In this document: positions 25,386-58,144 of the stretch, piece after piece
Layout: the number at the start of each line of letters is the position of its first letter
Position numbering within the stretch: the first letter of the stretch is position 1
Origin: Maylandia zebra
Lineage: Eukaryota; Chordata; Actinopteri; Cichliformes; Cichlidae
Assembly: GCF_041146795.1 (NCBI RefSeq)
Contig: NC_135184.1
Location: forward strand, 5,469,467 to 5,533,466
DNA length: 64,000 nt
Reading direction: 5' to 3'
The notes under the pieces: model-generated
What the model was told of the DNA's origin: nothing
What the model saw: the letters and a program-made list of their open reading frames with translations, nothing else
The model's database searches: none
Program-made: the position numbers and the translations under genes

Positions 25386-27044
25386 CTATTTCACTTTAAT
25401 CAACTCAGCAGTATCTTCACTATAGTAAACCAACAGTCCAGCATAGAGCGGCTGAGTGAATGTGGTCTGGACTCTGTGGAGGAGAGTCATGGTTTCAGAG
25501 ACGCTGTAGAAGGACAAAATACCTGCTCTGTGATCCAGGTACACTCCTACTCTGGAGGAACGAGGACCTGAGACAGGAGTTTGGATGTTGTTGTACCAAA
25601 ATGTATAACTGTTGTTGTCACAATCTAATGACCAAGATTTGTCATTACATCCAAATACACACTCATTCACACTCCCTGTTCTGCTGATATTCTTGTATGC
25701 GACTGCTACATCAACTCTCCCTCTCCACTCCACCTCCCAGTAACAACGTCCAGTTAGACTCTCTCTACTCAGGACCTGTTTATACGAAGTAAATCTGTCT
25801 GGATGATCAGAATAATGTTTTTGTTTCATTAAGGTTGCTTTTCTGTTCCCCTCTGATAATAACAGCTCTTTGTATGCTGTGTTTGGATCCAGTGTGATTT
25901 CACATGAATATTTTAAGAATCCAGCTCTGGTCTTTGGCTCTGGTGGATCTGACAGTAAAACATCCACTTCAGTGACTGTCAGTGAGATGTTTGTCCATTC
26001 CTCTCTCAGAATGTCCTGTAGTTTATCTCTGACCTCTGACACAGCTGCTGTCACATCCTCAAAGTAGCTCAGAGGACGGATATTGATGCTGGATGAGTCT
26101 GTAGACTCACTGAGTGCTGACAGTGAGGGGTAGTTGTGTAGAAACTGGATGTGATCCTCTGTGTGTGAGAGCTGCTTCAGCTCAGCATCTTTCCTCTTCA
26201 GCTCAGTGATCTCCTGCTCCAGCTTCTCCTGAAGCTCTTTGACTCGACTCGCTTCAGCTTCCTGCTGGGATCTGATCTGCTGCTTCACATCAGAGCTTCT
26301 TTTCTGGATGAGATGGATCAGCTCAGTGAAGATCTTCTCACTGTGCTCCACTGTTTGATCAGCAGACTGATTGATGGCCTCCACCTCCTGTTGAAGCAGC
26401 TTCACATCTTTCTCTCTGTCCTGGATTCTCTGCTGGATGTTTTGTCGACTCACCTCCAGCTCTCTCTGCCTCTCAGTCCTTTCTGCTGCAGCTGAGACTG
26501 TGTCGTGGCCTTTATGTTCATCCACAGAGCAGAGATAACAGATACTCTGCTGATCAGTACGGCAGAACATCTTCATCACCTCATCATGACGAGAGCAGAT
26601 GTTCTCTTGGAGCTTCTTGGAGGGCTCCACCAGCTTGTGTTTCTTTAATGGAGCCACATCATAATGACGCTGAAGGTGTTTCTCACAGTAAGATGCCAGA
26701 CAGAATAAACAGGACTTGAATGCTTTCACTTTTCTTCCAGTGCAGACATCACAGGCCACATCTCCAGGTCCAGCATAGCAGTGATCAGCAGGAGCAGCTT
26801 GGAGTCCAGTCTTCTTCAGCTCCTCCACTAAATCTGCTAACATGGTGTTTTTCATCAGGACAGGCCTCGCTGTGAAAGTCCTCCGGCACTGAGGGCAGCT
26901 GTAGATTTTCCTGTTTTCCTCTCCATCCCAGTGGGTTTTAATACAGTTCATGCAGTAGCTGTGTCCACAAGGAATAGTCACCGGATCCTTCAGTAGATCC
27001 AAACAGACTGAACAGCAGAATTTTGTTTGATCCATTTGATTCAT
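25386..27044 (-). CDS. TRIM E3 ubiquitin ligase, TRIM16/TRIM25-like, copy 4
   Basis: Intact single-exon gene of 552 residues from MNQMDQ. The frame is open to 27152 (588 codons). That extension is translated 5' flank shared by other copies, where it is closed by an in-frame stop (GTCTGA in relatives, GTCGGA here), so I take 27044 as the start. RING (CCSVC, CGHSYC, CPQC), B-box1 ([15 protein letters not shown]), B-box2, coiled coil, PRY and SPRY are complete. The variable SPRY residues after DRFT are SYK and the tail is SEDTAELIKVK. It lies in a unit nearly identical to that at 56486-58144. Its expected role is E3 ligase in innate defence. Confidence 0.94.
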   Translation of the reverse strand: MNQMDQTKFCCSVCLDLLKDPVTIPCGHSYCMNCIKTHWDGEENRKIYSCPQCRRTFTARPVLMKNTMLADLVEELKKTGLQAAPADHCYAGPGDVACDVCTGRKVKAFKSCLFCLASYCEKHLQRHYDVAPLKKHKLVEPSKKLQENICSRHDEVMKMFCRTDQQSICYLCSVDEHKGHDTVSAAAERTERQRELEVSRQNIQQRIQDREKDVKLLQQEVEAINQSADQTVEHSEKIFTELIHLIQKRSSDVKQQIRSQQEAEASRVKELQEKLEQEITELKRKDAELKQLSHTEDHIQFLHNYPSLSALSESTDSSSINIRPLSYFEDVTAAVSEVRDKLQDILREEWTNISLTVTEVDVLLSDPPEPKTRAGFLKYSCEITLDPNTAYKELLLSEGNRKATLMKQKHYSDHPDRFTSYKQVLSRESLTGRCYWEVEWRGRVDVAVAYKNISRTGSVNECVFGCNDKSWSLDCDNNSYTFWYNNIQTPVSGPRSSRVGVYLDHRAGILSFYSVSETMTLLHRVQTTFTQPLYAGLLVYYSEDTAELIKVK

Positions 27045-27451
27045 GTGCTGTGCCGTTTCACCGTCTCTCAGTGACTGTCCGACAGTTTGACTTCCTCTGA
27101 ACAGAAACAACCTCTGTGCTCTGAAGGGAAACAGATCTCTGCTCTTGTTCACCTCCTACAGGAAATGAGGCTCACCAGCAACTGCATTTACACCATGTTG
27201 TTTAGACCCATCCTGATACAGACACATCTGTGAAGGGAGGCAACAACAAGTCATAAATGCTTATTTCATCAGTGCCATGGTTTGTTATGTTTGATTTACA
27301 ATATGCAGTTAAAACTGTGACCTAGCTAACCTTGTTAACTAGTAACTTAGCCTATACGAAATGCCTTGTGGCGATGATTTAAGTAAGGTAAAACTTTATT
27401 GGTATAGTACCTTTTGAGATAATAAAGCGCTCCATGATAACGCTGGTTACA
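27045..27451 (-). promoter_or_regulatory. 5' flank of TRIM copy 4
   Basis: It shares the first ~190 bp with other copies (aacctctgtgctctgaaggg, ttcacctcctacaggaaat). The match stops after gtgaagggaggcaaca, so the CCAAT and TATA-like segment present in the units at 33060-33110, 34539-34570 and about 58340-58380 is missing here. The gene may use another promoter. Confidence 0.45.
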
Positions 27452-27459
27452 CCCTTGTG

Positions 27460-27900
27460 CACAGGTGTCAAAACTCCAGTCCTTGAGGTCCTGAAACTTT
27501 TACATGCGTCGCTGCTCCAACACACCTCAATAAAATTAGATCAAGTAGCAAGAGCCCTGACTGCATACTGAGGTGACAATTCAGCCATTAGATTCATGTT
27601 ATAGCAGCTCATGAATGAACGTGGCACAATATAAGCATTTTTATTGTTGAAGTACATTTTTTCCCAACACTTTCATTTATTTCAAACTAGAAAATGCATT
27701 TTCTGAAGAAACTGCAGTGTGAATGCTGATAACTGAACGTTTTGAGTTGAAATAATTGCTGAATGTTAAGTTAAAAATGTTGAGGTTTAGGGGTTCCCAC
27801 CTCAGCATGTAGTCAAGACTCTTGCTAATGACCTACTCATTTTATTCAGGTGTGTTGCAGCAGGGACACATGTAAAAGTTTCAGGACTTTGACACCCCTG
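27460..27900. mobile_element. Non-autonomous hAT-type DNA transposon (MITE)
   Basis: The 441 bp element is flanked by a perfect 8 bp target duplication, cccttgtg (27452-27459 and 27901-27908). It has imperfect inverted ends: CACAGGTGTCAAAA... on the left and ...CTTTGACACCCCTG on the right, with further inverted similarity (cctgaaacttttacatg against catgtaaaagtttcagg, and aacacacct against aggtgtgtt). An 8 bp duplication and CAGGGGTGTC-type ends are hallmarks of hAT elements. It has no coding capacity. It inserted in a TRIM-type ggttacaccc flank. Confidence 0.92.
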
Positions 27901-28114
27901 CCCTTGTGGATTAAACAGGATGAATTTGTTACACTCTTAACTCATCTAAACAAGGCATTTTGTAGAGGGTACAGCAGCCATGGCAGTTTTTCTTGAAACA
28001 ACTAATCTCACGTGTTGACTTTTTCTCAAAATAAGCATGGGAACAACTGTCTACAATAAATCAAACATATGTTTTACTCATTATGTAAGAATTGTTATAC
28101 AAATGACCAGTGCC

Positions 28115-28995
28115 AAGTAGGGCTTCCACAAATGATGATTTTGATCGTCGACTAGTCGCCGATTATTTTTGCGATTAGTTGACTGATCAGACCATGCATC
28201 CATTGGACGCACAGCTTACTGCACTAGCATGACCCATCCTCCAAATCCGGGGAAAAGGACGACGCATTTGTCGGAGTCTTCGTCGCGTCGCTGTAACGCA
28301 ATCGGGTGGTGTAAAAAAAGTCATTAACTGCATGCTTGCTTCACCTACTTAGCTTTAGTATTTTAATTTCCTAACTGTACATCCAAAGCTTTGCTCACTG
28401 CAGCTGTATTGCGCAGTTATGTTACACCCCTGAAAGCAGAGGGGAAATTACGAGTGATTTTCAAGTGATTCTCTCATGCAGTAGTTTAATGCAATGAAAA
28501 ATGAACATAAGTAATTCACATTGCGTACTGCTCAATGTCACACAGTGGAAGAAAGAGCTAATTAATAACCCAAAAATAACAATTGAGTGCTTACTATTTG
28601 TATCTGAACATGTTTCTGTACAAAATAGATAACAATAGAAACGTTTGTAGCTCCTGCCGTTAGCTTAATGGCCATTGTGCAACTGAGGCTCAAAACCGCG
28701 GCCTACCCACTAAAAATCTATAATAAAATGTTTCTGAAGCTCACAAAATAACGAAAGACTACCTATAAAATATCTCAACAACGTACAGAGTATAAAATAT
28801 CCTGTTTTGACCACCATTACCTTAAAACACGGAGGAAAGAATGACGAGGGTGATTTTGAGATGCTTCTCTTGTGCATTAGTTTTGTAATGAGGAGAGAGC
28901 GCGCGAAAGCCCCCTGGTAGAGAAAGAAGCCATTACCAATCGATCCCAGAAAAGACTTACTAGCCGATTACTGATGTACAGATCGCAGTTCTCTT
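28115..28995. mobile_element. Possible worn hAT-like element
   Basis: The left part contains gatcgtcgactagtcgccga and gcgattagttgactgatc, a sequence type common at the ends of fish hAT-like elements. The right part (cgatcccagaaaagacttac, agccgattac) is a weak counterpart. I cannot define target duplications or exact ends. Confidence 0.4.
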
Positions 28996-29460
28996 GAATC
29001 AAATGACAACAATTAATGCAACATGAAAAATAACCAATTTAAAACAATTTCGCAGTGTATTTACATTGTTTTCTGGGTAGCTCCCCAACTGGGTCTAGAC
29101 TGGGTCTAGAGAGTATTTTAAATTCAGGGAATTTAAAATAGAAAGTAGCTCGTCAACAGAAGGACTGGTAGCTCCCCTTACGATAAGGGTTCAGATCGCG
29201 CGAACAGGTGTGAAATGTGTGTGTTTAGTTAGTTTGTTTGTTTGCTTGTTTTAATCAATTTTAAATCATGCTTTTTATTTGTTTTTGTTTCTAATGTCTC
29301 TGTAAAGCACTTTGAATCACCTTGTTGTTGAATTGTGCTATACAAATAAATTTGCCTTGCCTTGCCTTTTCATGCTTATGAATTTGTATTAATATCCAAC
29401 AGACTGTTTTCCTTCCTCATCAGCAGTAAACAGCTCAACTCCGTCTGTGCATTTGTGTCC
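28996..29460 (+). repeat. Retroposon-like tail and small palindrome
   Basis: A perfect 11 bp inverted repeat with a 3-base loop lies at 29115-29139 (attttaaattc agg gaatttaaaat), next to a two-copy tandem of actgggtctag. Positions 29280-29365 carry gtaaagcactttgaatcacc and end in tacaaataaatttgcc followed by repeats of ttgcc, the tail of a common fish retroposon. No gene is seen. Confidence 0.5.
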
Positions 29461-29750
29461 AAATGATCATTTCATGCTGAAGACATCCTCAGACAGAATT
29501 AAACACATACATAAACACAGCCTGGTGCCAATAACACAGCTAATGACACTGCTGTATCACTGGCTTTACTGATTAAAGACCATATCTGAAGGAAATCTTT
29601 GAACACAACAGAAAGTGACCTTTTAAACACTGAGTGTCATCCTCACCTCAGTTCAGTCTTCAGCTGTTCTGTGGTCACATGACTGTTTCACTGTACACAT
29701 CAACTAGTTGTTAAACTGTAATAGACTTCATTTGAAATGATTTGTTGTTA
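29461..29750. repeat. Duplicated TRIM-unit flank (partner of 55576-55742)
   Basis: Positions 29463-29629 are nearly identical to 55576-55742 (atgatcatttcatgctgaag, cctggtgccaataacacagc). Both lie on the 3' side of a minus-strand TRIM unit, so they belong to the same segmental duplication. Confidence 0.8.
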
Positions 29751-29754
29751 ACAA

Positions 29755-30612
29755 GTGTAAGGAGATGATTGTCGACTTCAGGAAGACTCCACTCACACAT
29801 CACTCAGCATCCGTGGTTCCACGGTAGAGACTGTTACCAGCATCACGTTCCTGGGAGTTCACATCTCAGACAACCTCACCTGGACCACCAACACCACCCC
29901 CATCACCAAAAAAAGGCCCAGCAGCGCTTCCACTTCCTGAGACGCCTGAAGCGGGCCAACCTCACTCCTCCCATCCTCACCACGTTCTACAGAGCACCAT
30001 TGAGAGTGTTCTGACCAGCTGCATCTCCGTGTGGTTTGGCAACTGCAATGCTGGTGATCTTAGCAAACTACAATGCATTGTTAAAGCAGCTGCCAAGATC
30101 ATCGGAACATCTCTCCCTCTGCTACAAAACCGCTGCATCAGTAAAGCCTCCAGCATCGTGCTTGACCCCTCTCACCCCTCACATATACTCTTTTCTCTCC
30201 TTCCATCCTGCAGACACTACTGCAGCATCGGGGCCTGATCCCCCAGACTGCAGAATAGCTTTTTCCCACAAGCCCTCAGACTCGTGAACTCCCTCTCTCC
30301 CCCACACAAACTGCTAACCGACTCTTTTGCACTTTACACACCACTGCCTCTGTAAGACATGCTGCTCTATGGACATTTATTTACTCCAGGTTTACAAGCT
30401 GCTACACTGGTCACTTTAAACTCCAAACTGTAAATTCTAATTGAGAAGTTTCTTGATCACCTTAGACTTAAGCTTTTATTTATTTTCTTCTCCTTTCTTT
30501 ATCTATTTATTGCCTTTTTTGCACTGATCTAACCAGAGCCCCATAGTCTTGTCTCCCTGTATGCTGCACCAGATATAGTAGAGATTACAATAAAGTTTCT
30601 TTTGACTTGACA
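29755..30612 (+). mobile_element. L2-like LINE, 3' end with C-terminal reverse transcriptase remnants
   Basis: Fragments read EMIVDFRKTPL, then VTSITFLGVHISDNLTW, then FLRRLKRANLTPPILTTFY, then ISVWFGNCNAGDLSKLQ and DPSHPSHILFSLLPS. This order is that of L2/Rex1-type reverse transcriptases after the catalytic core. The frames are shifted against each other, so it is broken. The tail ends in acaataaagtttcttttgac. The insert splits the 3' flank of the TRIM unit at 31270-32931. Confidence 0.85.
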
Positions 30613-30836
30613 TTGACTAATACTGTAGTGAAGATAGTTGAAAGGTCACAGAGCGACTGCTGAATCTTCTGCTCTAAACATGAACTCTGAACTTTGTGAT
30701 GCTTCAGGAGGAAAACTTCTTCAGTTATTCTCTCAGATTAGTTTCATATTTTCTGCATCAGATTTGAGTGAGATCCTGGAATGAAGACAGAAGAAAAGAC
30801 TTTGTTCAAAGTTTGATTTATAGTCAAACCTTCCAG

Positions 30837-30842
30837 TTTATT
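30837..30842 (-). other. Polyadenylation signal of TRIM copy 5
   Basis: TTTATT on the plus strand (AATAAA on the minus strand), at the same place relative to the gene as 24953-24958 and 56053-56058, about 430 bp after the stop codon. Confidence 0.6.
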
Positions 30843-31269
30843 CACACAATAAAACATCAACACAATATATGAATTCATTCATTAAAATCACAGTTTTTCC
30901 TCATTTGTTTGATGATTTTGACAAAAACAAACACAAACACACACACATGGTCTGCCATACTCATAAAGAGAAATGTCGACATTTTTCAAGACAAATATTC
31001 CAGAAACATTTAGAGGATAGAGAAGTTTACATTTTCATGTGGAGAAATATTTTAGTAAATCAAAATGATGATGAGCAGTGATAGCCTCCATAAACAGTCA
31101 CAGGAAAGATCTCCTTTAAAAACTCAGAAACATCAAGAGAACAACTAGAAGATGTGGAGGTACCACCCATAATGTTTGACTGACAGCTGATCTCTGTGCA
31201 GAAATGATGGAGAGAAAATAAAATGAAACTAAAACACAGATTTAAACACACAATATGAAAGACTTCAGT

Positions 31270-32931
31270 CTATTTGAGCTTAATCAACTCAGCTGTGTCT
31301 CCATAATAGTGAACCCAAAGTCCAGCATAGAGCGGCTGAGTGAATGTGGTCTGGACTCTGTGGAGGAGAGTCATGGTTTCAGAGATGCTGTAGAAGGACA
31401 AAATACCTGCTCTGTGATCCAGGTACACTCCTACTCTGGAGGAACGAGGACCTGAGACAGGAGTTTGGATGTTGTTGTACAAAAATGTATAACTGTTGTT
31501 GTCACAATGTAATACCCAAGATTTGTCATTATGTCCAAATTTACATTTAATCCCTTTTCTGCTGATATTCTTGTATGCGACTGCTACATAACCTCCTCCC
31601 CCTCTCCTCTCCACTTCCCAGTAACAACGTGCAGTCAGTCTCTCTCTACTCAGAACCTGAAACCAGTCAGTGAATCTGTCTGGATGATCAGAATAAGACT
31701 GTTGTTGAATCACTGCTGTTGCTTTTCTGTTCCCCTCTGACAATAACAGACATTTGTTTGCTGTGTTTGGATCCAGTGTGATTTCACATGAATATTTTAA
31801 GAATTCAGCTCTGGTCTTTGGCTCTGCTGGTGGATCTGACAGTAAAACATCCACTTCAGTGACTGTCAGTGAGATGTTTGTCCGTTCCTCTCTCAGAATG
31901 TCCTGTAGTTTATCTCTGACCTCTGACACAGCTGCTGTCACATCCTCAAAGTAGCTCAGAGGACGGATATTGATGCTGGATGAGTCTGTAGACTCACTGA
32001 GTGCTGACAGTGAGGGGTAGTTGTGTAGAAACTGGATGTGATCCTCTGTGTGTGAGAGCTGCTTCAGCTCAGCATCTTTCCTCTTCAGCTCAGTGATCTC
32101 CTGCTCCAGCTTCTCCTCAAGCTCTTTGACTCGACTCACTTCAGTTTCCTGCTGGGATCTGCTCTGCTGCTTCACATCAGAGCTTCTTTTCTGGATGAGA
32201 TGGATCAGCTCAGTGAAGATCTTCTCACTGTGCTCCACTGTTTGATCAGCAGACTGATTGATGGCCTCCACCTCCTGTTGAAGCAGCTTCACATCTTTCT
32301 CTCTGTCCTGGATTCTCTGCTGGATGTTTTGTCGACTCACCTCCAGCTCTCTCTGCCTCTCAGTCCTTTCTGCTGCAGCTGAGACTGTGTCGTGGCCTTT
32401 ATGTTCATCCACAGAGCAGAGATAACAGATACTCTGCTGATCAGTACGGCAGAACATCTTCATCACCTCATCATGACGAGAGCAGATGTTCTCCTGGAGC
32501 TTCTTGGAGGGCTCCACCAGCTTGTGTTTCTTTAACTGAGCTGCTACATAATGAGGCTGAAGGTGTTTCTCACAGTAAGATGTCAAACAGACTAAACAGG
32601 ATTTGAAGGCTTTCATTTTTCTTCCAGTGCAGACATCACAGGCCACATCTTCAGGTCCAGCATAGCAGTGATCAGCAGGAGCAGCTTGGAGTCCAGTCTT
32701 CTTCAGCTCCTCCACTAAATCTGCTAACATGGTGTTTTTCTCCAGGACAGGCCTCGCTGTGAAAGTCCTCCGGCACTGAGGGCAGCTGTAGATTTTCTTC
32801 TTATCCTCTTCATCCCAGAAGCTTTTAATACAGTTCATGCAGTAGCTGTGTCCACAGGGAATAGTCACTGGATCCTTCAGTAGATCCAAACAGACTGAAC
32901 AGCAGATTTTTGTTTGATCCATTTGCTTCAT
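31270..32931 (-). CDS. TRIM E3 ubiquitin ligase, TRIM16/TRIM25-like, copy 5 (left of inverted pair)
   Basis: Intact single-exon gene of 553 residues starting MKQMDQ. RING (CCSVC, CGHSYC, CPQC), B-box1 ([15 protein letters not shown]), B-box2 (CSRHDEVMKMFC, CYLC, HKGHD), coiled coil, PRY and SPRY (WEVER, YLDHRAG) are complete. It shares HYVAAQLKKHK only with its inverted partner at 34718-36379. Differences from that partner concentrate in PRY-SPRY (DWF against WWF after DRFT; CKFGHN against SEFGCN) and in the tail (YYGDTAELIKLK). It carries an extra Ala in SDPPAEPK. It faces its partner head to head. Expected function as for the family. Confidence 0.94.
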   Translation of the reverse strand: MKQMDQTKICCSVCLDLLKDPVTIPCGHSYCMNCIKSFWDEEDKKKIYSCPQCRRTFTARPVLEKNTMLADLVEELKKTGLQAAPADHCYAGPEDVACDVCTGRKMKAFKSCLVCLTSYCEKHLQPHYVAAQLKKHKLVEPSKKLQENICSRHDEVMKMFCRTDQQSICYLCSVDEHKGHDTVSAAAERTERQRELEVSRQNIQQRIQDREKDVKLLQQEVEAINQSADQTVEHSEKIFTELIHLIQKRSSDVKQQSRSQQETEVSRVKELEEKLEQEITELKRKDAELKQLSHTEDHIQFLHNYPSLSALSESTDSSSINIRPLSYFEDVTAAVSEVRDKLQDILREERTNISLTVTEVDVLLSDPPAEPKTRAEFLKYSCEITLDPNTANKCLLLSEGNRKATAVIQQQSYSDHPDRFTDWFQVLSRERLTARCYWEVERRGGGGYVAVAYKNISRKGIKCKFGHNDKSWVLHCDNNSYTFLYNNIQTPVSGPRSSRVGVYLDHRAGILSFYSISETMTLLHRVQTTFTQPLYAGLWVHYYGDTAELIKLK

Positions 32932-33059
32932 GTGCTGTGCCGTTTCACCGTCTCTCAGTGACTGTCAGACAGTTTGACTTCCTCTGAACAGAAACAACCT
33001 CTGTGCTCTGAAGGGAAACAGATCTCTGCTCTTGTTCACCTTTAGACCCATCCTGATAC

Positions 33060-33240
33060 AGACACATCTGTGAAGGGAGATATATTCTTACAGAGCGACC
33101 AAGAACCAATCACATGATGCTGGGTGCGGTATGTGTGATTACATCATGCAGTAACAAGTCTGACCCAGTTAAAGTTTAATAGTTTATCTTTACTTGGTAC
33201 TTTGAAATGTGACAGTCAACACTCAGTGAGTTCATTTTAT
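33060..33240 (-). promoter_or_regulatory. Candidate promoter of TRIM copy 5
   Basis: On the minus strand a CCAAT box in reversed form (ccaat on plus at 33106-33110) lies about 20 bp upstream of a TATA-like aatatatc (gatatatt on plus at 33079-33086), about 150 bp before the start codon. The same arrangement is mirrored at 34539-34570. Function is inferred from spacing only. Confidence 0.45.
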
Positions 33241-34406
33241 ATTTCAAAAAGTTCAGCAAAGTTTAGGATGCTGTGATGAATAAAAATAAATGACACTTTA
33301 TATTTTGACATTTTCTAATCTTAGTTCATTCTCACACTTACAGAATGATGCATGGGAACAACTGACTCCACTAAATCAAACCTATGTTCAAATGAGATTA
33401 TGATCATTAAATAGTAACAAATATTTAAATTTAGCAACAACAAATGCAGATCAGTCCACAGTGTTTACAAAAACAAACAAACAAACATTATTTTGTAGTC
33501 TTTCCTGTGTACACAGTCACTGTGGAGTTTAAATGAAAACTTTCAAGTTTAATTCAAGGTTTTAGTAAAATTTTGCCTGAACTGTTTAGTAATTTTTCAC
33601 AAAGTGTCCATGTCAGTAATTCATTCAAATGTATTTTGGTCTTAAACTGATCCAGTAAATGTAACTTTTTCTCACCTACTTAATCGAGTATTTTAGTTGT
33701 TTAACTGTCATTATAACTAAACTGAACATCCAAAGCTTTTCTCACTGCAGTTTTGTTGTGCAGTTATAGCAGCACTTTGAATCATCCACAGTTTTATAGA
33801 ACTGTCTGTTGAATTGTTGTTTTGTTTGGTGCAATGCTTGCTTTCATTTAAATATTGATGATCATTTGATATATTTGATTATTTATTACTGTTTCAAACA
33901 ATTCATTTCTTCATGGTGCAAATATATAGTAGACTCAGGAGTTTAACTCAGTTTTCTTGGCCTTTGTTTATCGTTCATTTAAAATCTTAATGGGTAAAGA
34001 TCATCATAATTACATATGAAATTATATGTGCAAATTATATGTTCCATTACACTATTAACAGCACAGATTATACAGCAAACATCAGATTCATGGATGGAGC
34101 CAGAGGCTAAATGACTGTTCAGTCCTCTTTAGGAAACGATCTTCATATGACTACAAACACGACAACAATCAGCTGTCAAACTGTACAAGAAGTTCACAGT
34201 AATGTAAAAGAAGTTATATCACTTTATTTTTAAACGTACGCACTCAGGGTCAGGACTGAAGACACTGATCGAGAAAATACTCTAAATATAAATATTCACC
34301 TAAACATTCAAAATTATTCAATTGCATGAAAAGAAATATGAACTCTCTACAATACTGGCTTCTGATTGGTTGAAAAAGATGGTGCTGAACTTCAGAAGAG
34401 CTAAAC
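33241..34406. other. Spacer of the inverted TRIM pair
   Basis: AT-rich DNA without a supported gene. Positions 33643-34000 are nearly identical to 44093-44450, and 33899-34390 to 58447-58940, so pieces of this spacer occur at three places in the window. It may hold shared control sequence for the two divergent TRIM genes, but I see no clear motif. Confidence 0.55.
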
Positions 34407-34717: not shown

Positions 34718-36379
34718 ATGAATCAAATGGATCAAACAAAAATCTGCTGTTCAGTCTGTTTGGATCTACTGAAGGATCCAGTGACTATTCCCTGTGGACA
34801 CAGCTACTGCATGAACTGTATTAAAAGCTTCTGGGATGAAGAGGATAAGAAGAAAATCTACAGCTGCCCTCAGTGCCGGAGGACTTTCACAGCGAGGCCT
34901 GTCCTGATGAAAAACACCATGTTAGCAGATTTAGTGGAGGAGCTGAAGAAGACTGGACTCCAAGCTGCTCCTGCTGATCACTGCTATGCTGGACCTGAAG
35001 ATGTGGCCTGTGATGTCTGCACTGGAAGAAAAATGAAAGCCTTCAAGTCCTGTTTTGTGTGTTTGGTCTCTTACTGTGAGAAACACCTTCAGCCTCATTA
35101 TGTAGCAGCTCAGTTAAAGAAACACAAGCTGGTGGAGCCCTCCAAGAAGCTCCAGGAGAACATCTGCTCTCGTCATGATGAGGTGATGAAGATGTTCTGC
35201 CGTACTGATCAGCAGAGTATCTGTTATCTCTGCCCTGTGGATGAACATAAAGGCCACGACACAGTCTCAGCTGCAGCAGAAAGGACTGAGAGGCAGAGAG
35301 AGCTGGAGGTGAGTCGACAAAACATCCAGCAGAGAATCCAGGACAGAGAGAAAGATGTGAAGCTGCTTCAACATGATGTGGAGGCCATCAATCAGTCTGC
35401 TGATCAAACAGTGGAGCACAGTGAGAAGATCTTCACTGAGCTGATCCATCTCATCCAGAAAAGAAGCTCTGATGTGAAGCAGCAGATCAGATCCCAGCAG
35501 GAAACTGAAGTGAGTCGAGTCAAAGAGCTTGAGGAGAAGCTGGAGCAGGAGATCACTGAGCTGAAGAGGAAAGATGCTGAGCTGAAGCAGCTCTCACACA
35601 CAGAGGATCACATCCAGTTTCTACACAACTACCCCTCACTGTCAGCACTCAGTGAGTCTACAGACTCATCCAGCATCAATATCCGTCCTCTGAGCTACTT
35701 TGAGGATGTGACAGCAGCTGTGTCAGAGGTCAGAGATAAACTACAGGACATTCTGAGAGAGCAATGGACAAACATCTCACTGACAGTCACTGAAGTGGAT
35801 GTTTCACTGTCAGATCCACCAGAGCCAAAGACCAGAGCTGGATTCTTAAAATATTCATGTGAAATCACACTGGATCCAATCACAGCAAACAAAAAGCTGT
35901 TATTATCAGAGGGGAACAGAAAAGTGCAAGCAGTGATTCAACAACAGTCTTATTCTGATCATCCAGACAGATTCACTTGGTGGTTTCAGGTTCTGAGTAG
36001 AGAGAGTCTGACTGGACGTTGTTACTGGGAGGTGGAGTGGAGAGGGGGAGGAGTTTATGTAGCAGTCACTTACAAGAATATCAGAAGAAAAGGAGATGAA
36101 TCTGAATTTGGATGTAATGACAAATCTTGGGCATTAGAGTGTTACAACAACAGTTTTACATTTTTGTACAACAACATCCAAACTCCTGTCTCAGGTCCTC
36201 GTTCCTCCAGAGTAGGAGTGTACCTGGATCACAGAGCAGGTATTTTGTCCTTCTACAGCGTCTCTGAAACCATGACTCTCCTCCACAGAGTCCAGACCAC
36301 ATTCACTCAGCCGCTCTATGCTGGACTGTTGGTTTACTATAATTATGGAGCCACTGCTGAGTTGATTAAGCTCAAATAG
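34718..36379 (+). CDS. TRIM E3 ubiquitin ligase, TRIM16/TRIM25-like, copy 6 (right of inverted pair)
   Basis: Intact single-exon gene of 553 residues, the only TRIM here on the plus strand. It has a RING (CCSVC, CGHSYC, CPQC), B-box1 ([15 protein letters not shown]), B-box2 (with CPVDEHKGHD where others have CSVDEH), coiled coil, PRY (LDP) and SPRY (WEVEW, YLDHRAG). Its variable residues after DRFT are WWF and its tail is YGATAELIKLK. It is closest to the gene at 31270-32931 in the scaffold but differs in PRY-SPRY. The start MNQMDQ follows a stop-containing 5' flank and agrees with its paralogues. The 3' UTR ends near an AATAAA at 36807-36812. Confidence 0.94.
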   Translation: MNQMDQTKICCSVCLDLLKDPVTIPCGHSYCMNCIKSFWDEEDKKKIYSCPQCRRTFTARPVLMKNTMLADLVEELKKTGLQAAPADHCYAGPEDVACDVCTGRKMKAFKSCFVCLVSYCEKHLQPHYVAAQLKKHKLVEPSKKLQENICSRHDEVMKMFCRTDQQSICYLCPVDEHKGHDTVSAAAERTERQRELEVSRQNIQQRIQDREKDVKLLQHDVEAINQSADQTVEHSEKIFTELIHLIQKRSSDVKQQIRSQQETEVSRVKELEEKLEQEITELKRKDAELKQLSHTEDHIQFLHNYPSLSALSESTDSSSINIRPLSYFEDVTAAVSEVRDKLQDILREQWTNISLTVTEVDVSLSDPPEPKTRAGFLKYSCEITLDPITANKKLLLSEGNRKVQAVIQQQSYSDHPDRFTWWFQVLSRESLTGRCYWEVEWRGGGVYVAVTYKNIRRKGDESEFGCNDKSWALECYNNSFTFLYNNIQTPVSGPRSSRVGVYLDHRAGILSFYSVSETMTLLHRVQTTFTQPLYAGLLVYYNYGATAELIKLK

Positions 36380-49991: not shown

Positions 49992-50034
49992 GGGGTGAGA
50001 CGCAAGAACTTTTAGTCCGTTATTCGCAGCATTT

Positions 50035-51720
50035 ATGTTTGCAGCATTCAAACGAACGTTCGCCAGAGAAGCCCTTTTTGGATCCTTTTCAGAGTCACTG
50101 TTAACAGATTCCAACATGTCTCCAAGAAAGCAGAAAAAAAGAGAAAACGTAAAGCCCAGCGCTCCTCTTTGCAATCGAGAAGACGATACGCAACTGCAGA
50201 AGATGTGCTTGGAAGAAATGCATGAGGAAAATCTCATGAACAATCACAATACGCGACACCCGCCCCAGCCAGAGTACACCAATTACATCTGGGAAAGTTT
50301 TTTTAAACAACGAACGGAGATTATCTTACTGAGAGAGCACTGTGAGAGAAGGACCGCTGAAGCAGATAAACTGTTCAGACAGCTTCTCGATAAGGAAGAT
50401 ATTATAAAGGAGAAAGAAATGGAACTCCTAGACATGCGGGGAAGGATCTTTGAGCTCCAAGCAAAGCTTAATAAAGTACAAGAAAAACCAACAGAAGAAA
50501 TCCTCCAACAGAAGAAAAACGAGAAAGAGAGGGGAAAAAAGATTCAGGAGCTGCAAGTAAAGCTGGATGAAGCTCTGCAAAAAAATCAAGAACTCCTCCA
50601 AGAGAAGAAACAACTGGTCATAAAACTCCAAGGCACTGAGATAAATGAAAAAGTGCTGAAAGGAAGGGTTGAGTTTCTTCGAAAGAAAGCGCAACAGACC
50701 ATGAAAAAGGAAGATATGGATTGCAAGCTTCAGGACAGCGAGAAACACAAGGAAGCCTTGCAAATAAAGCTTGATGAAGCTCTGCAAAAAAATCAAGAAC
50801 TCCTCCAAGAAAAAGAACAAATGGACATAAAGCAGCGCAAACTGCAAGGCATGGAGGGAAAGTACAAAGCACTGCAGGCGAAGCTTGATAAAACACTGAA
50901 CAAAAATAAAGAGTTGCTTCAAGAAAAAAAGCAACTAGAAATTAAACAGAAAGAAACGGACTCCAAGCTTGAAGGCGTGGAGGAAAAATACACCGCGCTG
51001 AAAATAAAGCTTGATAAAACAGTGCAAAGAAATAAGGATTTCCTACAAGACAAAGAACAATGGGAAATAAAGCAGAAAGAAGATAAACAAATTCTCCAGG
51101 ACTTTGAGAGGAAAAACCAACAACTGCAAGACCGTTATAACAAACTGAACTCCAAAACAACTGAGCTGGAGGGGGAAAAGAAAAAAGTGCAAAAACAATG
51201 CTCAGAGATGCAGAGTAAGCTCAGTGACATGCTGAGAAAAAACACAGAACTGGAGAAACTTTCCAACAACTTGAAGTGCAAAAACACTGAGGTGCAGATG
51301 TTAAAGCAGCAAGTAGAGAAAACAAACAAAGACCTGCAGTGTACACTTCAAGAACTCGAGAGAAGTCAGCAGCTACAAGACGCACACAACAAATTACAAC
51401 ACAGTTATACAGAGATGCACGAGGCAAAGCTTATGCAGGAGGCCAAATGTAAAGAACTGAAAGAAAGGCTGGAAGAAAAACAAGGCAAATTAGAAGAAGT
51501 GGAGACAACATGCAGGAAACTTGAGAAGGAAAACACACAAACAATTGATGAGTTACGAACCCTCATCCTAGAGAAAAGAGTGCTCGTGGAAAAGATCACG
51601 GAAAAGAAGAAAAAACGCTTCCGCTTCTTCTGGAGAAAGAGCACTCCTGCCTTTTCTACTTTTTCTGCTTTTCCTTCTGCTGATGTCACCCCGTCTTCCT
51701 CCTCCACCGTTGCATCGTAA
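50035..51720 (+). CDS. Unrecognised long coiled-coil protein, intronless
   Basis: One exon codes for 561 residues. Residues 1-90 are not coiled and include a basic stretch (SPRKQKKREN). Residues ~95-525 are an almost unbroken Glu/Lys/Gln/Leu-rich coiled coil. Inside it a 25-residue module (consensus LQxKLDEALQKNQELLQEKKQLxIK) occurs four times, at 173, 242, 280 and 322. A basic, aromatic patch follows (KKKKRFRFFWRK, 523-534), then a Ser/Thr/Pro-rich tail. A second in-frame Met at residue 28 (50116) has a better start context (A at -3) than the first. No enzyme motif, signal peptide or membrane segment is visible. I do not recognise the family; a structural or trafficking scaffold is possible but unproven. 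TATA box, an open frame of 1.7 kb and AATAAA at 52031-52036 argue for a real gene. Confidence 0.8.
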   Translation: MFAAFKRTFAREALFGSFSESLLTDSNMSPRKQKKRENVKPSAPLCNREDDTQLQKMCLEEMHEENLMNNHNTRHPPQPEYTNYIWESFFKQRTEIILLREHCERRTAEADKLFRQLLDKEDIIKEKEMELLDMRGRIFELQAKLNKVQEKPTEEILQQKKNEKERGKKIQELQVKLDEALQKNQELLQEKKQLVIKLQGTEINEKVLKGRVEFLRKKAQQTMKKEDMDCKLQDSEKHKEALQIKLDEALQKNQELLQEKEQMDIKQRKLQGMEGKYKALQAKLDKTLNKNKELLQEKKQLEIKQKETDSKLEGVEEKYTALKIKLDKTVQRNKDFLQDKEQWEIKQKEDKQILQDFERKNQQLQDRYNKLNSKTTELEGEKKKVQKQCSEMQSKLSDMLRKNTELEKLSNNLKCKNTEVQMLKQQVEKTNKDLQCTLQELERSQQLQDAHNKLQHSYTEMHEAKLMQEAKCKELKERLEEKQGKLEEVETTCRKLEKENTQTIDELRTLILEKRVLVEKITEKKKKRFRFFWRKSTPAFSTFSAFPSADVTPSSSSTVAS

Positions 51721-51742
51721 TTTTCACCTTAACTCCTAACAC

Positions 51743-51774
<32 letters not shown>

Positions 51775-52055
51775 CTCTCTTTCACCCTCACCCCCCAACC
51801 AGTCCCGACAGTTGACTGGCCCCTCTAGAGCCTGGTTCTGTCATAGGTTTCTTCCTTTAAAGGGAGTTGTTCCTATCCACTGTCGCACCCAGTGCTTGCT
51901 CAGAGGGCATAGTTGGGGTTCTCTCTCCTCTCTTTCCTCCTTTCTATCCCTTTCCTTTACCCTCTTCTTTACCCCCCACCCCTCCCCCCTTTTCTATTCC
52001 CCCGCTTTTCTATTTCCTTAATAATTAAATAATAAACACAATTGGCTACATTTTA
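51721..52055 (+). other. 3' UTR of the coiled-coil gene
   Basis: It contains a run of 28 C (51746-51773), a CT-rich tract, a copy of the fish gagcctggttctg...ggtttcttcc repeat (51826-51925) and an AATAAA at 52031-52036. Confidence 0.55.
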
Positions 52056-53030
52056 AATGTGTCTGATCAACGTCTTCATTCAAGAATGAATTGTCTTTCT
52101 CACAGAGTCATGTGTATTTTGTGTTTTCCTCGGGCTGGTGATCTCCGCGGTCGTTCAGCCCCGGAGTCCAGAGTTTTAGTGTTTTAATCACATTTAGTGT
52201 TACATTTTAGATCACCACAATAGGATATCCATAATTTAGGATTCAGGCATTTGTTTTAGTTCAATATCGTAATCATTCTATGACTGAGTAGTTTACAGAA
52301 CCTTCAGTCTGCACCAATAACTTCTGTTGGAGCTATTTGTTCTTATTTTTTTATTATTTTGAAATTAGTTAAAGTTTGTTGTTAGTTTACTTATATTTTG
52401 GGGTTTATTTACAAGTTTATTTGTAGGTTAATATTTGTTTCAATGTTTTGTTTGTTTGATGTTACCTTGTTAAATTAGTCAGTAAAAGCTGTAGGGCCAT
52501 TTTGTTTCTATAAATAAAGAGACTGGTATAGGACCAGCATGCACTGGGGTGAGCCTATGGTTTTTTACTAGAGCAGGAGAAGCAGCAGGACGTAACTAAA
52601 AATGGATCTTGTTATTGCTTGCCAAACTGGATAAAATAAACCATAAGAACGCAACTTTAAAGTTTGGACAGTGGACTTCTTTTGCCTGCGTACGAAATAT
52701 TATCTCAGTGCAGCAGTGGCTTGTGGACTTTTAATTGTGGGATGTTTGGTTTGTCAAACAAAAGGAATTGCCACTACAAAAAGTAAAAAACCTGCCCGTG
52801 GACAAAGGAATAATCCTTCATTAATGGATATGTTGGATATATGGATTTCAAGGATCACCGTCGAACTCGAATAAAAGTTACTGGATCGTCTGTAAGTACT
52901 CCAGACGGATTTGATGTTGAAGCCTGGATCAACATGTCACTCGTTCATCAAAGCTGGTGAGTGACAATATTGTTTAAGCCGTAAAGGAAAACGGTGAAGC
53001 TATTGGAGTTTAAAGACATTATTTCACTAC

Positions 53031-53623
53031 TGTCATGGTCCTGGGCCATGTGGGCCCAGTATTCTTAGTTCCTTGTATTTTTGTATTTCGTTCCTTATTT
53101 AGGCCATGTTTTCTGAGTTGCCCTGTTGTGTTGTTCCCTAAGTGTTTTCCCTTCATGGCTTTTACCCCCTGTGTGCCCCTCTGTGTATCTGTGAGCCCTC
53201 GTCTCCCCTTGTGGTTGTTTCATGTTTCCCCAGCCCGTTATGTCTGTGTTTTCCCCGTGCTCTCTCTCCTCCTGTCTGAACCTCTGTGCCTGTACATGTC
53301 ATGTTCAGTTCACCCCGCCCTGTCTCGTTATGATTATCAGTATCACCTGTGTTCCCCGTGTGTGCCCACTTTCCTCGTTTATACCCTCTGTGTATTTCTG
53401 TCTGAGTCTCCCTCTGTTCAGCGTCGCGTTCTCCCTCATGTTGTGTGTAATTCTCCCCGTGGTTCGGTTCCTTGTACAGTTCATGCGTTAGTTTTCCCAG
53501 TTTTAGTTTATTCTGTATTGCTTCCCGTGGCCAGCAATAAAGCTGTGTTTTTGAGTTTATCCCCGTGTCTGTGAACCTGCATCTTGGGTCCTTCCCCTGC
53601 CTGCCACACAACGTATCATGACA
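53031..53623 (+). mobile_element. Short LTR-like fossil with TGTCA...TGACA ends (copy 5)
   Basis: 593 bp, starting TGTCATGG and ending ATCATGACA, with a perfect 5 bp target duplication actac (53026-53030 and 53624-53628). An AATAAA signal at about 53537 is followed by the family's ctgcatcttgggtcc segment. It inserted into the leader of the BEL/Pao fossil, so it is younger than that element. The open frame inside it has no recognisable domain. Confidence 0.72.
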
Positions 53624-54349
53624 ACTACAAAGACTGATGAACTGAGTTTTGATGTACTAAATTTGTGCATAATAGGATCACTAATTGAAACATGCCAACG
53701 CCCTCCGTGGAAATGTTTGTTCGGTGCAATCATGTTTGCGCTTTATGCTATGGATTCTCAGTGTGCTGTGCATCTTTATAATGTTTGAAATAATCCAAGA
53801 GGACAATAAAAATGTCGGATATTAAGAGTAAACAAGAGAGTAAACAAGAGGATGACACTCAGATGCAAGCAGAGAAAAGAAGCATCAAATTTACGCCAAA
53901 AGGTTTGGATTTGTATATAAAGACATGCCAAGAAAAGCGGAGTTCAATGTGTAAGCAAGCATCTAAGTACATGGGGAAAACTTCTGCTTTAATGACCTCA
54001 CATGAGAACGTTAAGGAAGTGTCTTCGGAATTTGGGAAGTTTATTAAATGCTATCAAGATGCAAACGCTTTGCAAGAATCCTTTTTAAGTTTGCCACTGC
54101 CAGAAGATGAAGTGAAAAGGCAAAGCGCACATTTTCAGTCTAAGGTGACAGCATTCTGTGTTTTTATGGACAAAGTAAAGGTTTGGTTGCAGGAAGCAGG
54201 CGAGCCGTATACTGAACAAAGCAATACTGCTCTTAATGATCAAGCTGTTGAAAGTTTGGATGAAATAAATCCTGAAGACAGTGTCTCTAATATCTCAAGT
54301 GTAAAGCCACCTTCGAAAACATTGTCACAGCTGTTATGATATTTTGATA

Positions 54350-54960
54350 CCACGGTAAGCATTTACAGGATATTGTTTTATACAGGAAAACTGTTACTCA
54401 ATAAGGCCAATCTACTAGTTGTTTTTCTCTTTCTCTGTGACCCAAGAATTAATGTGTAAGACTCACAAGCTGGTACCAGAAGGTCGAAAACACCACAGAG
54501 ATGAGACCACTTCCTTACTCCCATCCTCCCTTTTTCTTTATCTCCTGGAAAAGGCTCGTTAAAGGCTAGGTGGTTTGTTTCAGAATTCACTAATGAAAGA
54601 ACTCTGTATTTTATGTCTAGGAGTGTATTTTGCTGGGATGATCATAAATTGTAGCTGAACTGATAAACTACACACAGGATACTTCTTGGCTCACAAGGCA
54701 GGAAGACGTTTCCTTATTTGGTCTGTACCGGTTTGAACTGGGAAAGCTGACACACGAACCTTTTTTTTCATCTATATAAACTGCTGTGTATCAAATAAAC
54801 CTTTGAGTCGATTTGGGAAGACAACCTGAAGCAGTCTGTGTTTCCTTGTTCTCCCAAGCTGCTCCCGACGTCGTAACTAACCCAGCTGAATGGCATACCT
54901 GAGTGTTACTTTAAATAATTAGGAATCTTATAAGGAAAGGACAGAACTCTGCTTATCGCT
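54350..54960 (+). mobile_element. Probable solo LTR inserted in the BEL/Pao fossil
   Basis: A TATA-like tatataaac at about 54773 and an AATAAA at about 54796 stand close together, followed by a short region that includes cccgacgtcg. This promoter and polyadenylation layout is typical of an LTR. It separates the two gag-like pieces of the BEL/Pao fossil. Exact ends and family are not certain. Confidence 0.5.
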
Positions 54961-55575
54961 CACGCCACGGAGGAAACCCGGGAAGGCAATTTCCTTCAAC
55001 AGCAAAGTCGAATTTCATCAACATCTTCCGCACGCATTAAAGCTGCGGCTGACAAGGCAGCGCTCATGGAGCGACTCGCTGCATTAAAGAAAAACATTCT
55101 ATTGAAGCGCAAGAGGAAAAACTGAGAAAAGAAAAGGAGAAATTATCCTTGGAAACAGAGTTGGCAGCAACTAAGGCAAAGCTTCGTGTCTTAAAAATAA
55201 ACTCAGTTTGTAGCTCTGAGCGTTCTGATGGAATGAACTCTTATTTTGAAAGAGGGCACGTACAAGAAGCGCCTTGTGCTGATACATTTGTTCCGGCAGA
55301 AAGAGATTACTCTGGTACAAATTCTACATCTGAATCACAAGTAATCGTACCTCAAAACTCAATCAACTGGAAGCAGAACAAATTCCACTGTTCTGCATAG
55401 TTGTTTGTTTTGTTCACACAGCAATCATTTACTAGAGAATTGTAAGCAGCTTAAAGCTAAAATTCATCGGGATAAGCTGACTTTTATCAAGGAAAGGGGA
55501 ATTTGTTTTGGTTGTTTAAAAGTTGGTCACATAAGCAAAGACTGTAGGAGTCATTTGAGACACAGCAGCTGAGCA

Positions 55576-56485
55576 AATGATCATTTCATGCTGAAGACAT
55601 CCTCAGACAGATTTAAACACATACATAAACACAGCCTGGTGCCAATAACACAGCTAATGACACTGCTGTATCACTGGCTTTACTGATTAAAGACCATATC
55701 TGAAGGAAATCTTTGAACACAACAGAAAGTGACCTTTTAAACCTGCCACACTGATGCTGCATTCAAGGACCATTAAAAACATTTGAAAGGACTTAAGAAC
55801 ATCAAGAAAATGTGACTTGTTTCTCTGTAATGAAGCTGTTTTAGTGAAGAAAGTTGAAAGGTCACAGAGCGACTGCTGAATCTTCTGCTCCAAACATGAA
55901 CTCTGAACTTTGTGATGCTTCAGGAGGAAAACTGCTTCAGTTATTCTCTCAGATTAGTTTCATATTTTCTGCATCAGATTTGAGTGAGATCCTGGAATGA
56001 AGACAGAAGAAAAGACTTTGTTCAAAGTTTGATTTATAGTCAAACCTTCCAGTTTATTCACACAATAAAACATCAACACAATATATGAATTCATTCATTA
56101 AAATCACAGTTTTTCCTCATTTGTTTGATGATTTTGACAAAAACAAACACAAACACACACACATGGTCGGCCATACTCATAAAGAGAAATGTCGACATTG
56201 TTCAATACAAATATTCCAGAAACATTTAGAGGATAGAGAAGTTTACATTTTCATGTGGAGAAATATTTTAGTAAATCAAAATGATGATGAGCAGTGATAG
56301 CCTCCATAAACAGTCACAGGAAAGATCTCCTTTAAAAACTCAGAAACATCAAGAGAACAACTAGAAGATGTGGAGGTACCACCCATAATGTTTGACTGAC
56401 AGCTGATCTCTGTGCAGAAATGATGGAGAGAAAATAAAATGAAACTTAAATACAGATTTAAACCCACAATATGAAAGACTTCAGT
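55576..56485 (-). other. 3' UTR and 3' flank of TRIM copy 7
   Basis: Positions 55576-55742 match 29463-29629. Positions 55743-56485 match 24635-25385 almost base for base. The reversed polyadenylation signal TTTATT is at 56053-56058. There is no other gene. Confidence 0.7.
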
Positions 56486-58144
56486 CTATTTCACTTTAAT
56501 CAACTCAGCTGTGGCTCCAAAGTAAACCCAAAGTCCAGCATAGAGCGGCTGAGTGAATGTGGTCTGGACTCTGTGGAGGAGAGTCATGGTTTCAGAGACG
56601 CTGTAGAAGGACAAAATACCTGCTCTGTGATCCAGGTACACTCCTACTCTGGAGGAACGAGGACCTGAGACACGAGTTTGGATGTTGTTGTACCAAAATG
56701 TATAACTGTTGTTGTTACAATCTAATGACCAAGATTTGTCATTATGTCCAAATAAACATTCATTTCCTTTTCTGCTGATATTCTTGTATGCGACTGCTAC
56801 ACAAACTCCTTCCCCTCTCCACTCCACCTCCCAGTAACAACGTCCAGTCAGACTCTCTCTACTCAGGACCTGTTCATATCCAGTGAATCTGTCTGGATGA
56901 TCAGAATAAGACTGTCCAAATAAATTGAATGTTGCTTTTCTGTTCCCCTCTGATAATAACAGCAATATGTGTGCTGTGTTTGGATCCAGTGTGATTTCAC
57001 ATGAATATTTTAAGAATCCAGCTCTGGTCTTTGGCTCTGGTGGATCTGACAGTAAAACATCCACTTCAGTGACTGTCAGTGAGATGTTTGTCCGTTCCTC
57101 TCTCAGAATGTCCTGTAGTTTATCTCTGACCTCTGACACAGCTGCTGTCACATCCTCAAAGTAGCTCAGAGGACGGATATTGATGCTGGATGAGTCTGTA
57201 GACTCACTGAGTGCTGACAGTGAGGGGTAGTTGTGTAGAAACTGGATGTGATCCTCTGTGTGTGAGAGCTGCTTCAGCTCAGCATCTTTCCTCTTCAGCT
57301 CAGTGATCTCCTGCTCCAGCTTCTCCTGAAGCTCTTTGACTCGACTCGCTTCAGTTTCCTGCTGGGATCTGATCTGCTGCTTCACATCAGAGCTTCTTTT
57401 CTGGATGAGATGGATCAGCTCAGTGAAGATCTTCTCACTGTGCTCCACTGTTTGATCAGCAGACTGATTGATGGCCTCCACCTCCTGTTGAAGCAGCTTC
57501 ACATCTTTCTCTCTGTCCTGGATTCTCTGCTGGATGTTTTGTCGACTCACCTCCAGCTCTCTCTGCCTCTCAGTCCTTTCTGCTGCAGCTGAGACTGTGT
57601 CGTGGCCTTTATGTTCATCCACAGAGCAGAGATAACAGATACTCTGCTGATCAGTACGGCAGAACATCTTCATCACCTCATCATGACGAGAGCAGATGTT
57701 CTCCTGGAGCTTCTTGGAAGGCTCCACCAGCTTGTGTTTCTTGAATGAAGCTGCAACAATATTATGAGTCTGAAGGTGTTTCTCACAATAAGATGCCAGA
57801 CAGAATAAACAGGACTTGAAGGCTTTCATTTTTCTTCCAGTGCAGACATCACAGGCCACATCTTCAGGTCCAGCATAGCAGTGATCAGCAGGAGCAGCTT
57901 GGAGTCCAGTCTTCTTCAGCTCCTCCACTAAATCTGCTAACATGGTGTTTTTCACCAGGACAGGCCTCGCTGTGAAAGTCTGTCTGCACTGAGGGCAGCT
58001 GTAGATTTTCTTCTTTTCCTCTTCATCCCAGAAGCTTTTAATACAGTTCATGCAGTAGCTGTGTCCACAGGGAATAGTCACCGGATCCTTCAGTAGATCC
58101 AAACAGACTGAACAGCAGAATTTTGTTTGGTCCATTTGATTCAT
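56486..58144 (-). CDS. TRIM E3 ubiquitin ligase, TRIM16/TRIM25-like, copy 7
   Basis: Intact single-exon gene of 552 residues starting MNQMDQ. RING at residues 11-53 (zinc ligands C11/C14, C26/H28, C31/C34, C50/C53), B-box1 (98-135), B-box2 (151-181), coiled coil (~185-295), PRY from ~383 (LDP at 386-388) and SPRY to the end (WEVE 438-441; YLDHRAG about 503-509). Variable residues are 404-411 (ATFNLFGQ), 422-424 (GYE), several within 442-480 and the tail (YFGATAELIKVK). B-box1 has a unique HNIVAASFKKHK where others have HYDVAPLKKHK. The unit is almost the same as that at 25386-27044. Expected role: E3 ligase in innate defence. Confidence 0.94.
   Translation of the reverse strand: MNQMDQTKFCCSVCLDLLKDPVTIPCGHSYCMNCIKSFWDEEEKKKIYSCPQCRQTFTARPVLVKNTMLADLVEELKKTGLQAAPADHCYAGPEDVACDVCTGRKMKAFKSCLFCLASYCEKHLQTHNIVAASFKKHKLVEPSKKLQENICSRHDEVMKMFCRTDQQSICYLCSVDEHKGHDTVSAAAERTERQRELEVSRQNIQQRIQDREKDVKLLQQEVEAINQSADQTVEHSEKIFTELIHLIQKRSSDVKQQIRSQQETEASRVKELQEKLEQEITELKRKDAELKQLSHTEDHIQFLHNYPSLSALSESTDSSSINIRPLSYFEDVTAAVSEVRDKLQDILREERTNISLTVTEVDVLLSDPPEPKTRAGFLKYSCEITLDPNTAHILLLLSEGNRKATFNLFGQSYSDHPDRFTGYEQVLSRESLTGRCYWEVEWRGEGVCVAVAYKNISRKGNECLFGHNDKSWSLDCNNNSYTFWYNNIQTRVSGPRSSRVGVYLDHRAGILSFYSVSETMTLLHRVQTTFTQPLYAGLWVYFGATAELIKVK

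Follow-up and report, generated by a model that had tools for sequence, protein, structure and literature searches.

TRIM proteins dimerise through their coiled coil, recruit E2-ubiquitin through their RING and bind their targets through their PRY-SPRY domain. This study concerns an array of TRIM genes in the cichlid Maylandia zebra, seen in a stretch of 64,000 nucleotides (nt) that we call the window (NCBI RefSeq assembly GCF_041146795.1, contig NC_135184.1, here C18, positions 5469467-5533466). The closest described genes are the teleost finTRIM (ftr) genes, for which positive selection on the loops of the B30.2 (PRY-SPRY) domain, selected sites just upstream of the RING, and recombination breakpoints, one in B30.2 and one in the RING-B-box part, were reported; 47 of 55 medaka finTRIM genes lie in one exon, and zebrafish ftr genes have six exons (PMC2657112). 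According to the same paper, loop-focused diversification also marks primate TRIM5alpha, in the domain that binds retroviral capsids. The btr (TRIM39-like) and hltr (TRIM35-like) genes are RBCC-B30.2 sets with selected B30.2 loops, and seven breakpoints were found in btr (PMC3137616). In the zebrafish NLR-B30.2 genes, conversion is domain-specific: NACHT is homogenised within groups, and B30.2 is variable with a high ratio of replacement to silent substitution rates (dN/dS); group-wise multimerisation was raised by the authors as speculation (PMC4852459). Duplication of finTRIM genes in cichlids has been reported as well (PMC3944005). All statements on these systems refer to the available portions of the respective texts.

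Within these portions, gene conversion occurs solely in a reference title in both the btr/hltr paper (PMC3137616) and the cichlid paper (PMC3944005), and the main text of the finTRIM paper (PMC2657112) contains neither this term nor a homogenised coiled coil. Searches of the open literature, which left most subscription journals outside, turned up no TRIM array described as having a homogenised coiled coil. Judged by title, none of the papers on concerted evolution of TRIM coiled-coil paralogs dealt with fish TRIMs, and intronless finTRIMs appeared in PMC2657112 alone among the literature searched.

The M. zebra genes resemble the teleost finTRIMs (PMC2657112) in the order of RING, B-boxes, coiled coil and PRY-SPRY, in their clustering, in their variable selected loops and in their kinship with TRIM16 and TRIM25. 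Specifically, the closest solved chains among PDB sequences were TRIM25 over the full length (9.4e-67) and TRIM16 for PRY-SPRY (4.5e-40), which makes these two the nearest mammalian relatives within that collection. Positive selection on B30.2 was found at the level of the domain by a partitioned test, with a counting ratio of about 1. The one-exon structure is of the medaka type, unlike the six exons of zebrafish ftr genes. RBCC-B30.2 proteins with selected loops are also shared with btr and hltr (PMC3137616), but among solved structures the M. zebra proteins come closest to TRIM25 and TRIM16, and neither TRIM39 nor TRIM35 was among the best 60 of 151 PDB matches. Loop-focused diversification of B30.2 recalls TRIM5alpha, a single gene compared between primate species, whereas the variation described here is among paralogues in one genome. 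Conversion that acts differently by domain, together with a variable B30.2, is shared with the NLR-B30.2 genes (PMC4852459). In that other protein family the homogenised domain is NACHT, and conversion of B30.2 crosses group borders, whereas here the partition runs within one exon and short loops escape, not the whole of B30.2. We consider it very probable that the array is finTRIM-like and combines a scaffold kept uniform by conversion with PRY-SPRY loops that escape it and diversify under selection.

Results

The window holds seven single-exon open reading frames (ORFs) of 545-592 amino acids, each a whole TRIM protein without an intron; the same number of full copies had been given by an earlier reading of the letters alone (the sequence-only reading). 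RING, B-box, TRIM_CC, PRY and SPRY scored above the Pfam cut-offs in T1 and T9, the two of the seven full copies that were scanned, and the alignment gives the same layout for all seven. Pfam detects one B-box; B-box1 was read from the alignment with TRIM25. One window protein was searched against the fish's own genome (962 Mb). The 79 scored matches, a lower bound as they were scored out of 1915 candidates, lie on C18 (49, at 4.10-5.82 Mb), C3 (29, at 19.6-22.0 Mb) and C5 (one). They cover almost the entire query, bar one that starts at residue 42, and 78 of them contain no internal stop. The alignment of 72 rows comprises 48 of the 49 C18 matches (the C18 set; L046, which starts at residue 42, was excluded as its RING start motif was not found), 23 of the 29 C3 matches (the C3 set) and the C5 copy (L050), which belongs to neither set. 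The C3HC4 pattern of zinc ligands is kept in all 72 copies and the B-box2 pattern in 69.

Two sub-arrays about 1 Mb apart on C18 were compared. Sub-array A consists of 12 copies at 4.36-4.61 Mb, seven of them with flanks, the divergent L040 (4.34 Mb) being excluded. Sub-array B consists of 20 copies at 5.49-5.81 Mb, or 22, with L036 and L038 added, in the analyses of allele sharing and linkage disequilibrium (LD) and in part of the A-B divergence analysis. Copies with long alignable flanks numbered five (A1), two (A2) and six (B).

Codons are numbered on T9, codon 1 being the F of FCCSVC (residue 9), and all T9 coordinates below are on the minus strand. Among the seven window copies, dS by counting was 0.010 in the coiled coil, 0.146 in the RING, 0.107 in the PRY-SPRY frame and 0.321 in the pooled variable segments. 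Without T1, the remaining six copies gave a dS of 0.006 and a dN of 0.010 for the coiled coil, 0.123 and 0.078 for the RING, and 0.101 and 0.046 for the B-box part. The scaffold is therefore not uniformly constant. RING and B-box1 (codons 1-139; 57704..58120) are moderately variable, with alleles common to the sub-arrays, but B-box2, coiled coil and linker (codons 140-362; 57035..57703) are homogenised within C18. The near-identity from RING to coiled coil described by the sequence-only reading holds from B-box2 on and fails for RING and B-box1.

Variation in PRY-SPRY is concentrated in seven short segments, together 75 codons, which we call loops. In T9 these are V1a (codons 383-387; 56960..56974), V1 after GNRK (codons 395-404; 56909..56938), V2 with the GYE triplet (codons 413-417; 56870..56884), V3 (codons 435-441; 56798..56818), V4 from ISR to FGxN (codons 447-460; 56741..56782), V5 (codons 464-484; 56669..56731) and, beyond a constant SPRY core (codons 485-528; 56537..56668), V6 at the C-terminus (codons 529-541; 56498..56536). 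Variable places after GNRK, at the triplet following DRFT, around ISR/FGxND and in the last ~12 residues had been named before; that list was incomplete, and the places after LDPNTA, at WRGxGV and after DKSW were added. The seven triplets (KCW, YWC, VRY, SYK, DWF, WWF and GYE) are indeed all different, the preceding motif being DKFT in one copy.

With hypervariable codons defined by an entropy above 1.5 bits, the C18 set has 21, of which 19 lie in PRY-SPRY, all 19 inside the loops. The C3 set has 27, of which 25 lie in PRY-SPRY and 23 of these inside the loops. Codons 140-362 contain none in either set. Variation is thus focused in short segments and not evenly spread, as had been proposed. 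Furthermore, the per-site PRY-SPRY entropies of the two sets correlate (Spearman 0.724, matched by none of 181 circular shifts), and hypervariable PRY-SPRY sites coincide at 17 positions compared with 2.6 expected, a comparison that is independent of the loop limits. Each segment occurs in 24 to 46 amino-acid versions among the 48 C18 copies, and 47 distinct combinations of the seven segments were counted in them. Between the C18 and C3 sets, 17 replacement and 5 silent codons are near-fixed. All 17 replacements fall in codons 140-362, none in RING-B-box1 or PRY-SPRY. An excess of replacements in the coiled coil is not claimed, the ratio of 17:5 being near the site ratio of 397:107 there.

In codons 140-362, the proportion of silent sites that differ (pS) was 0.0057 within C18, 0.0158 within C3 and 0.0766 between them. 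The coiled-coil part differs by 6% between the two chromosomes, silent sites included, which rules out silent-site constraint as the reason for its uniformity. Between sub-arrays A and B, flanking divergence amounts to 36% over the 60 nt that precede the RING codons and to 16% over the 280 nt downstream (5 x 5 copies; unrelated control 56%, 3 x 3 copies). Despite this, the two sub-arrays are only 0.48% apart in codons 140-355 and 0.57% apart in the SPRY core; for RING-B-box1 the difference was 6% and for the loops 14%. In a divergence profile taken in steps of 20 codons, edges lie at about codons 140 and 340. Coiled coils that stay uniform where the flanks on either side have diverged point to exchange between copies, not to recent common descent alone. 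These sequence comparisons thus give good support to gene conversion within a chromosome as the process that keeps B-box2, coiled coil and SPRY core uniform. The sequence-only reading had suggested conversion of this kind, and the suggestion stands for a uniform part that excludes RING and B-box1.

Of the 29 RING-B-box1 sites that are polymorphic among the 12 A copies, 24 segregate for the same pair of alleles among the 22 B copies. LD in A declines with distance, from an r2 of 0.418 below 30 nt to 0.119 for sites at least 100 nt apart (matched by 0 of 2000 permutations). Blocks are therefore exchanged there too, and comparison of the copies shows gene conversion moving them between copies. 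In the tree of V3-V5, a single label change separates C18 from C3. Wide sharing of loop alleles between the chromosomes found little support: one nucleotide allele is shared in V1a, three in V1, one each in V2 and V3, and none in V4-V6.

The loops diverge even where the background is young. When five A copies were compared in all ten pairs, the flanks differed at 32 of 16,000 bases (0.2%) and the loops at 272 of 2250 (12.1%), about sixty times as much. In the same copies the coiled coil differs by 0.42%, the PRY-SPRY codons between the loops by 0.25% and RING-B-box1 by 4.2%. The contrast is weaker in six B copies (upstream 1.1%, downstream 3.6%, coiled coil 0.41%, frame 1.9%, RING-B-box1 4.3%, loops 13.8%), where the downstream value is inflated by one copy (L013) with a different downstream end. 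A pair of A copies has on average 22.1 replacement and 3.2 silent differences in the loops. The ratio of replacement to silent differences per site (pN/pS) was 1.7 in A and 1.3 in B by counting; the A value is kept down by silent sites that are scarce and themselves elevated (pS 0.071). Linkage between PRY-SPRY sites less than 30 nt apart is only weak (r2 0.130 in A, 0.107 in B). Silent loop differences lie within 2 nt of a replacement in 9 of 13 cases in A and 22 of 52 in B. Directed mutation in the loops was rejected as a conclusion, as silent changes beside replacements on near-identical backgrounds fit multi-nucleotide changes or conversion equally.

Selection was explored with a codon model on a per-site grid of silent and replacement rates, in which a free fit was compared to one with the replacement rate not above the silent rate. 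On a single tree, PRY-SPRY gave twice the log-likelihood difference (2dlnL) of 128.7 for C18 and 46.5 for C3, with 27 and 17 codons listed as selected. C18 nulls without recombination reached 20.6 at most (60 runs), whereas nulls simulated on seven block trees and then fitted to one tree went up to 78.1, with a mean of 39.3 (observed 124.5 on the same coarser grid). Each of the seven blocks was then given its own tree in data and nulls alike. In this partitioned test the C18 set gave a 2dlnL of 52.0 (44 nulls, maximum 20.1) and the C3 set 15.0 (50 nulls, maximum 7.5). Both values exceed all nulls, in agreement with the diversifying selection proposed for the loops. The tests support selection that would act on the PRY-SPRY domain and not on named codons.

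Gene content of the window

All full window copies but one are on the minus strand. The KCW copy T1 (4..1782; ORF, alignment and Pfam) is the most divergent of the seven. The copies T2 with YWC (6784..8421) and T3 with VRY (13127..14806) rest on ORF and alignment, and those with SYK (25386..27152, locus L020) and DWF (31270..32931, locus L026) additionally on a genome match. The WWF copy (34718..36379, locus L029) is the sole full copy on the plus strand. The GYE copy T9 (56486..58144, locus L001) is backed by ORF, alignment, genome match and Pfam. All seven had been placed within 25386-58144; that interval contains only four of them (starting at 25386, 31270, 34718 and 56486), and the KCW, YWC and VRY copies start at 4, 6784 and 13127.

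An eighth, divergent TRIM ORF (20119-21519, minus strand) has RING, coiled coil and PRY-SPRY in frame and lacks both B-boxes; it is about 59% identical to T9 across coiled coil and PRY-SPRY. Two fragments on the minus strand, RING-B-box1 fused to a coiled-coil piece (16118-16576) and a lone SPRY-core stretch of 43 amino acids that is 100% identical to T9 (4091-4219), are possibly conversion donors or debris. Several A copies carry a repeat of a 73-nt coiled-coil coding piece some 0.5 kb ahead of the RING codons (94.6% identical; L005 935-1007 and 2170-2242). An ORF on the plus strand (50035-51720, 561 amino acids) is coiled-coil-like and has no Pfam match. Four more full-length matches to it at 99% and one at 88% with stops were found, the four on C18 near TRIM genes, and partial or weaker relatives occur on other chromosomes. 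Full-length relatives near TRIM genes indicate that the array also grows by larger segments. The ORF at 17360-17893 (plus strand) resembles what we take to be a Tc1-type transposase remnant. Elsewhere in the genome, further SPRY clusters with long, mostly uninterrupted frames lie on C12 (33.13-33.6 Mb), C3 (8.1-8.7 Mb), C22 (22.0-22.1 Mb) and C23 (0.56-0.78 Mb). In one copy per cluster (L085, L071, L080 and L073), a RING-like motif was seen at the start of all except L080.

Discussion

Under the reading we favour, the window belongs to a large array of genes that each encode a finTRIM-like E3 ligase in a single exon. As the comparison of copies shows, conversion on the same chromosome keeps B-box2, coiled coil and SPRY core uniform and shifts RING-B-box1 blocks among copies, while the seven PRY-SPRY segments escape homogenisation and gather amino-acid changes. 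Diversifying selection towards different ligands, probably viral ones, has probably retained these changes, and the common RING-B-box-coiled-coil part would dimerise and ubiquitinate whatever the loops bind. By analogy with the published finTRIM and TRIM5alpha domains (PMC2657112), the variable segments probably sit on the binding face of PRY-SPRY. An antiviral role of the array would be expected from its gene family.

Could the scaffold be uniform through youth alone, with tandem duplicates under very strong positive selection and no conversion? The five A copies fit this, with flanks that vary as little as the coiled coil (0.1-0.4%) and loops that differ by 12%. Between A and B, however, coiled coils only 0.5% apart sit between flanks diverged by 16-36%, which speaks against youth as the sole cause, and RING-B-box1, placed between a uniform flank and the coiled coil, differs by 4% with alleles shared with B. 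We regard this explanation as highly improbable. Relaxed constraint or a mutation hot spot, with loops changing since nothing holds them, would agree with a pooled loop pN/pS near 1 and with the raised silent sites. It is nevertheless hard to reconcile with a partitioned test above all 44 and all 50 nulls, with 78 of 79 scored copies free of stops and with the same codons varying in C18 and C3, and it appears very unlikely to us. An old pool of loop alleles, to which substitution adds little and which conversion in very short tracts only reshuffles, is suggested by 34 of 43 polymorphic A loop sites with the same two alleles in B, and by silent variants at codons 383, 480, 533 and 537 present in both sub-arrays. 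Yet the interloop codons of A are nearly uniform (frame pS 0.004), so that tracts could be only a few codons long, and LD is already low below 30 nt. Moreover, C3 has the same two alleles at 28 of the 43 sites despite its separate V3-V5 tree, which suggests recurrent substitution. On balance we think such reshuffling unlikely as the main source of the loop variation.

Several observations weigh against a converted scaffold with selected, escaping loops. The loop limits were set from the window copies together with the C18 and C3 entropy profiles, so the in-loop counts are only partly independent of them. The comparison covers the C18, C3 and C5 copies only. The separation of C18 and C3 is less clean elsewhere in PRY-SPRY than in V3-V5, with three label changes in PRY and five at the C-terminus. 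By counting, the pooled loop pN/pS is only 1.14 in C18 and 1.06 in C3, and it is below 1 for V4 in both sets (0.77-0.78), for V6 in C18 and for V1 in C3. Silent sites in the loops are raised too (pS 0.07-0.19); age or import therefore accounts for part of the loop divergence. As regards single sites, C18 recombination nulls gave up to 33 falsely selected sites compared with 31 observed on one tree, and the one-tree list of selected codons was dropped for this reason. In the partitioned test, 16 (C18) and 4 (C3) sites were called, and nulls reached 17 and 9. As nulls call as many sites as the data, no site list is trustworthy alone. Within these limits, both parts of the sequence-only reading, conversion and diversifying selection, are supported, and it is correct in substance.

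In kind this is an ordinary fish TRIM array whose recognition loops diversify, but the form seen here is extreme and well resolved. Earlier papers had already described selection on finTRIM loops, finTRIM genes without introns and, in NLR-B30.2 genes, conversion that differs by domain. What is new is the sharp split within one exon, in a TRIM array, between a converted scaffold and escaping loops. Also new are the two chromosomal arrays, each uniform inside and set apart from the other by the 17 near-fixed replacements of the part from B-box2 to the linker. The pattern resembles other immune gene families but is unusually sharp here. The array also holds a caution, namely that one-tree codon tests overstate the number of selected sites in such families.

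A further idea is that the coiled coil is homogenised since the array is one mixed assembly, in which any two of about 50 PRY-SPRY heads could pair to form a combinatorial germline repertoire. If so, the 17 near-fixed replacements would hold the C18 and C3 arrays apart as separate pools. Their confinement to codons 140-362 could, however, follow from conversion alone, and we consider the idea unlikely. With or without mixed assembly, the array shows a germline receptor family in which the effector module would stay common to all copies and the recognition loops change, within one exon and between near-identical flanks. Its young copies, with flanks 0.2% and loops 12% apart, would offer a clean natural system for the question of whether fish TRIMs form a mixed, combinatorial antiviral repertoire.

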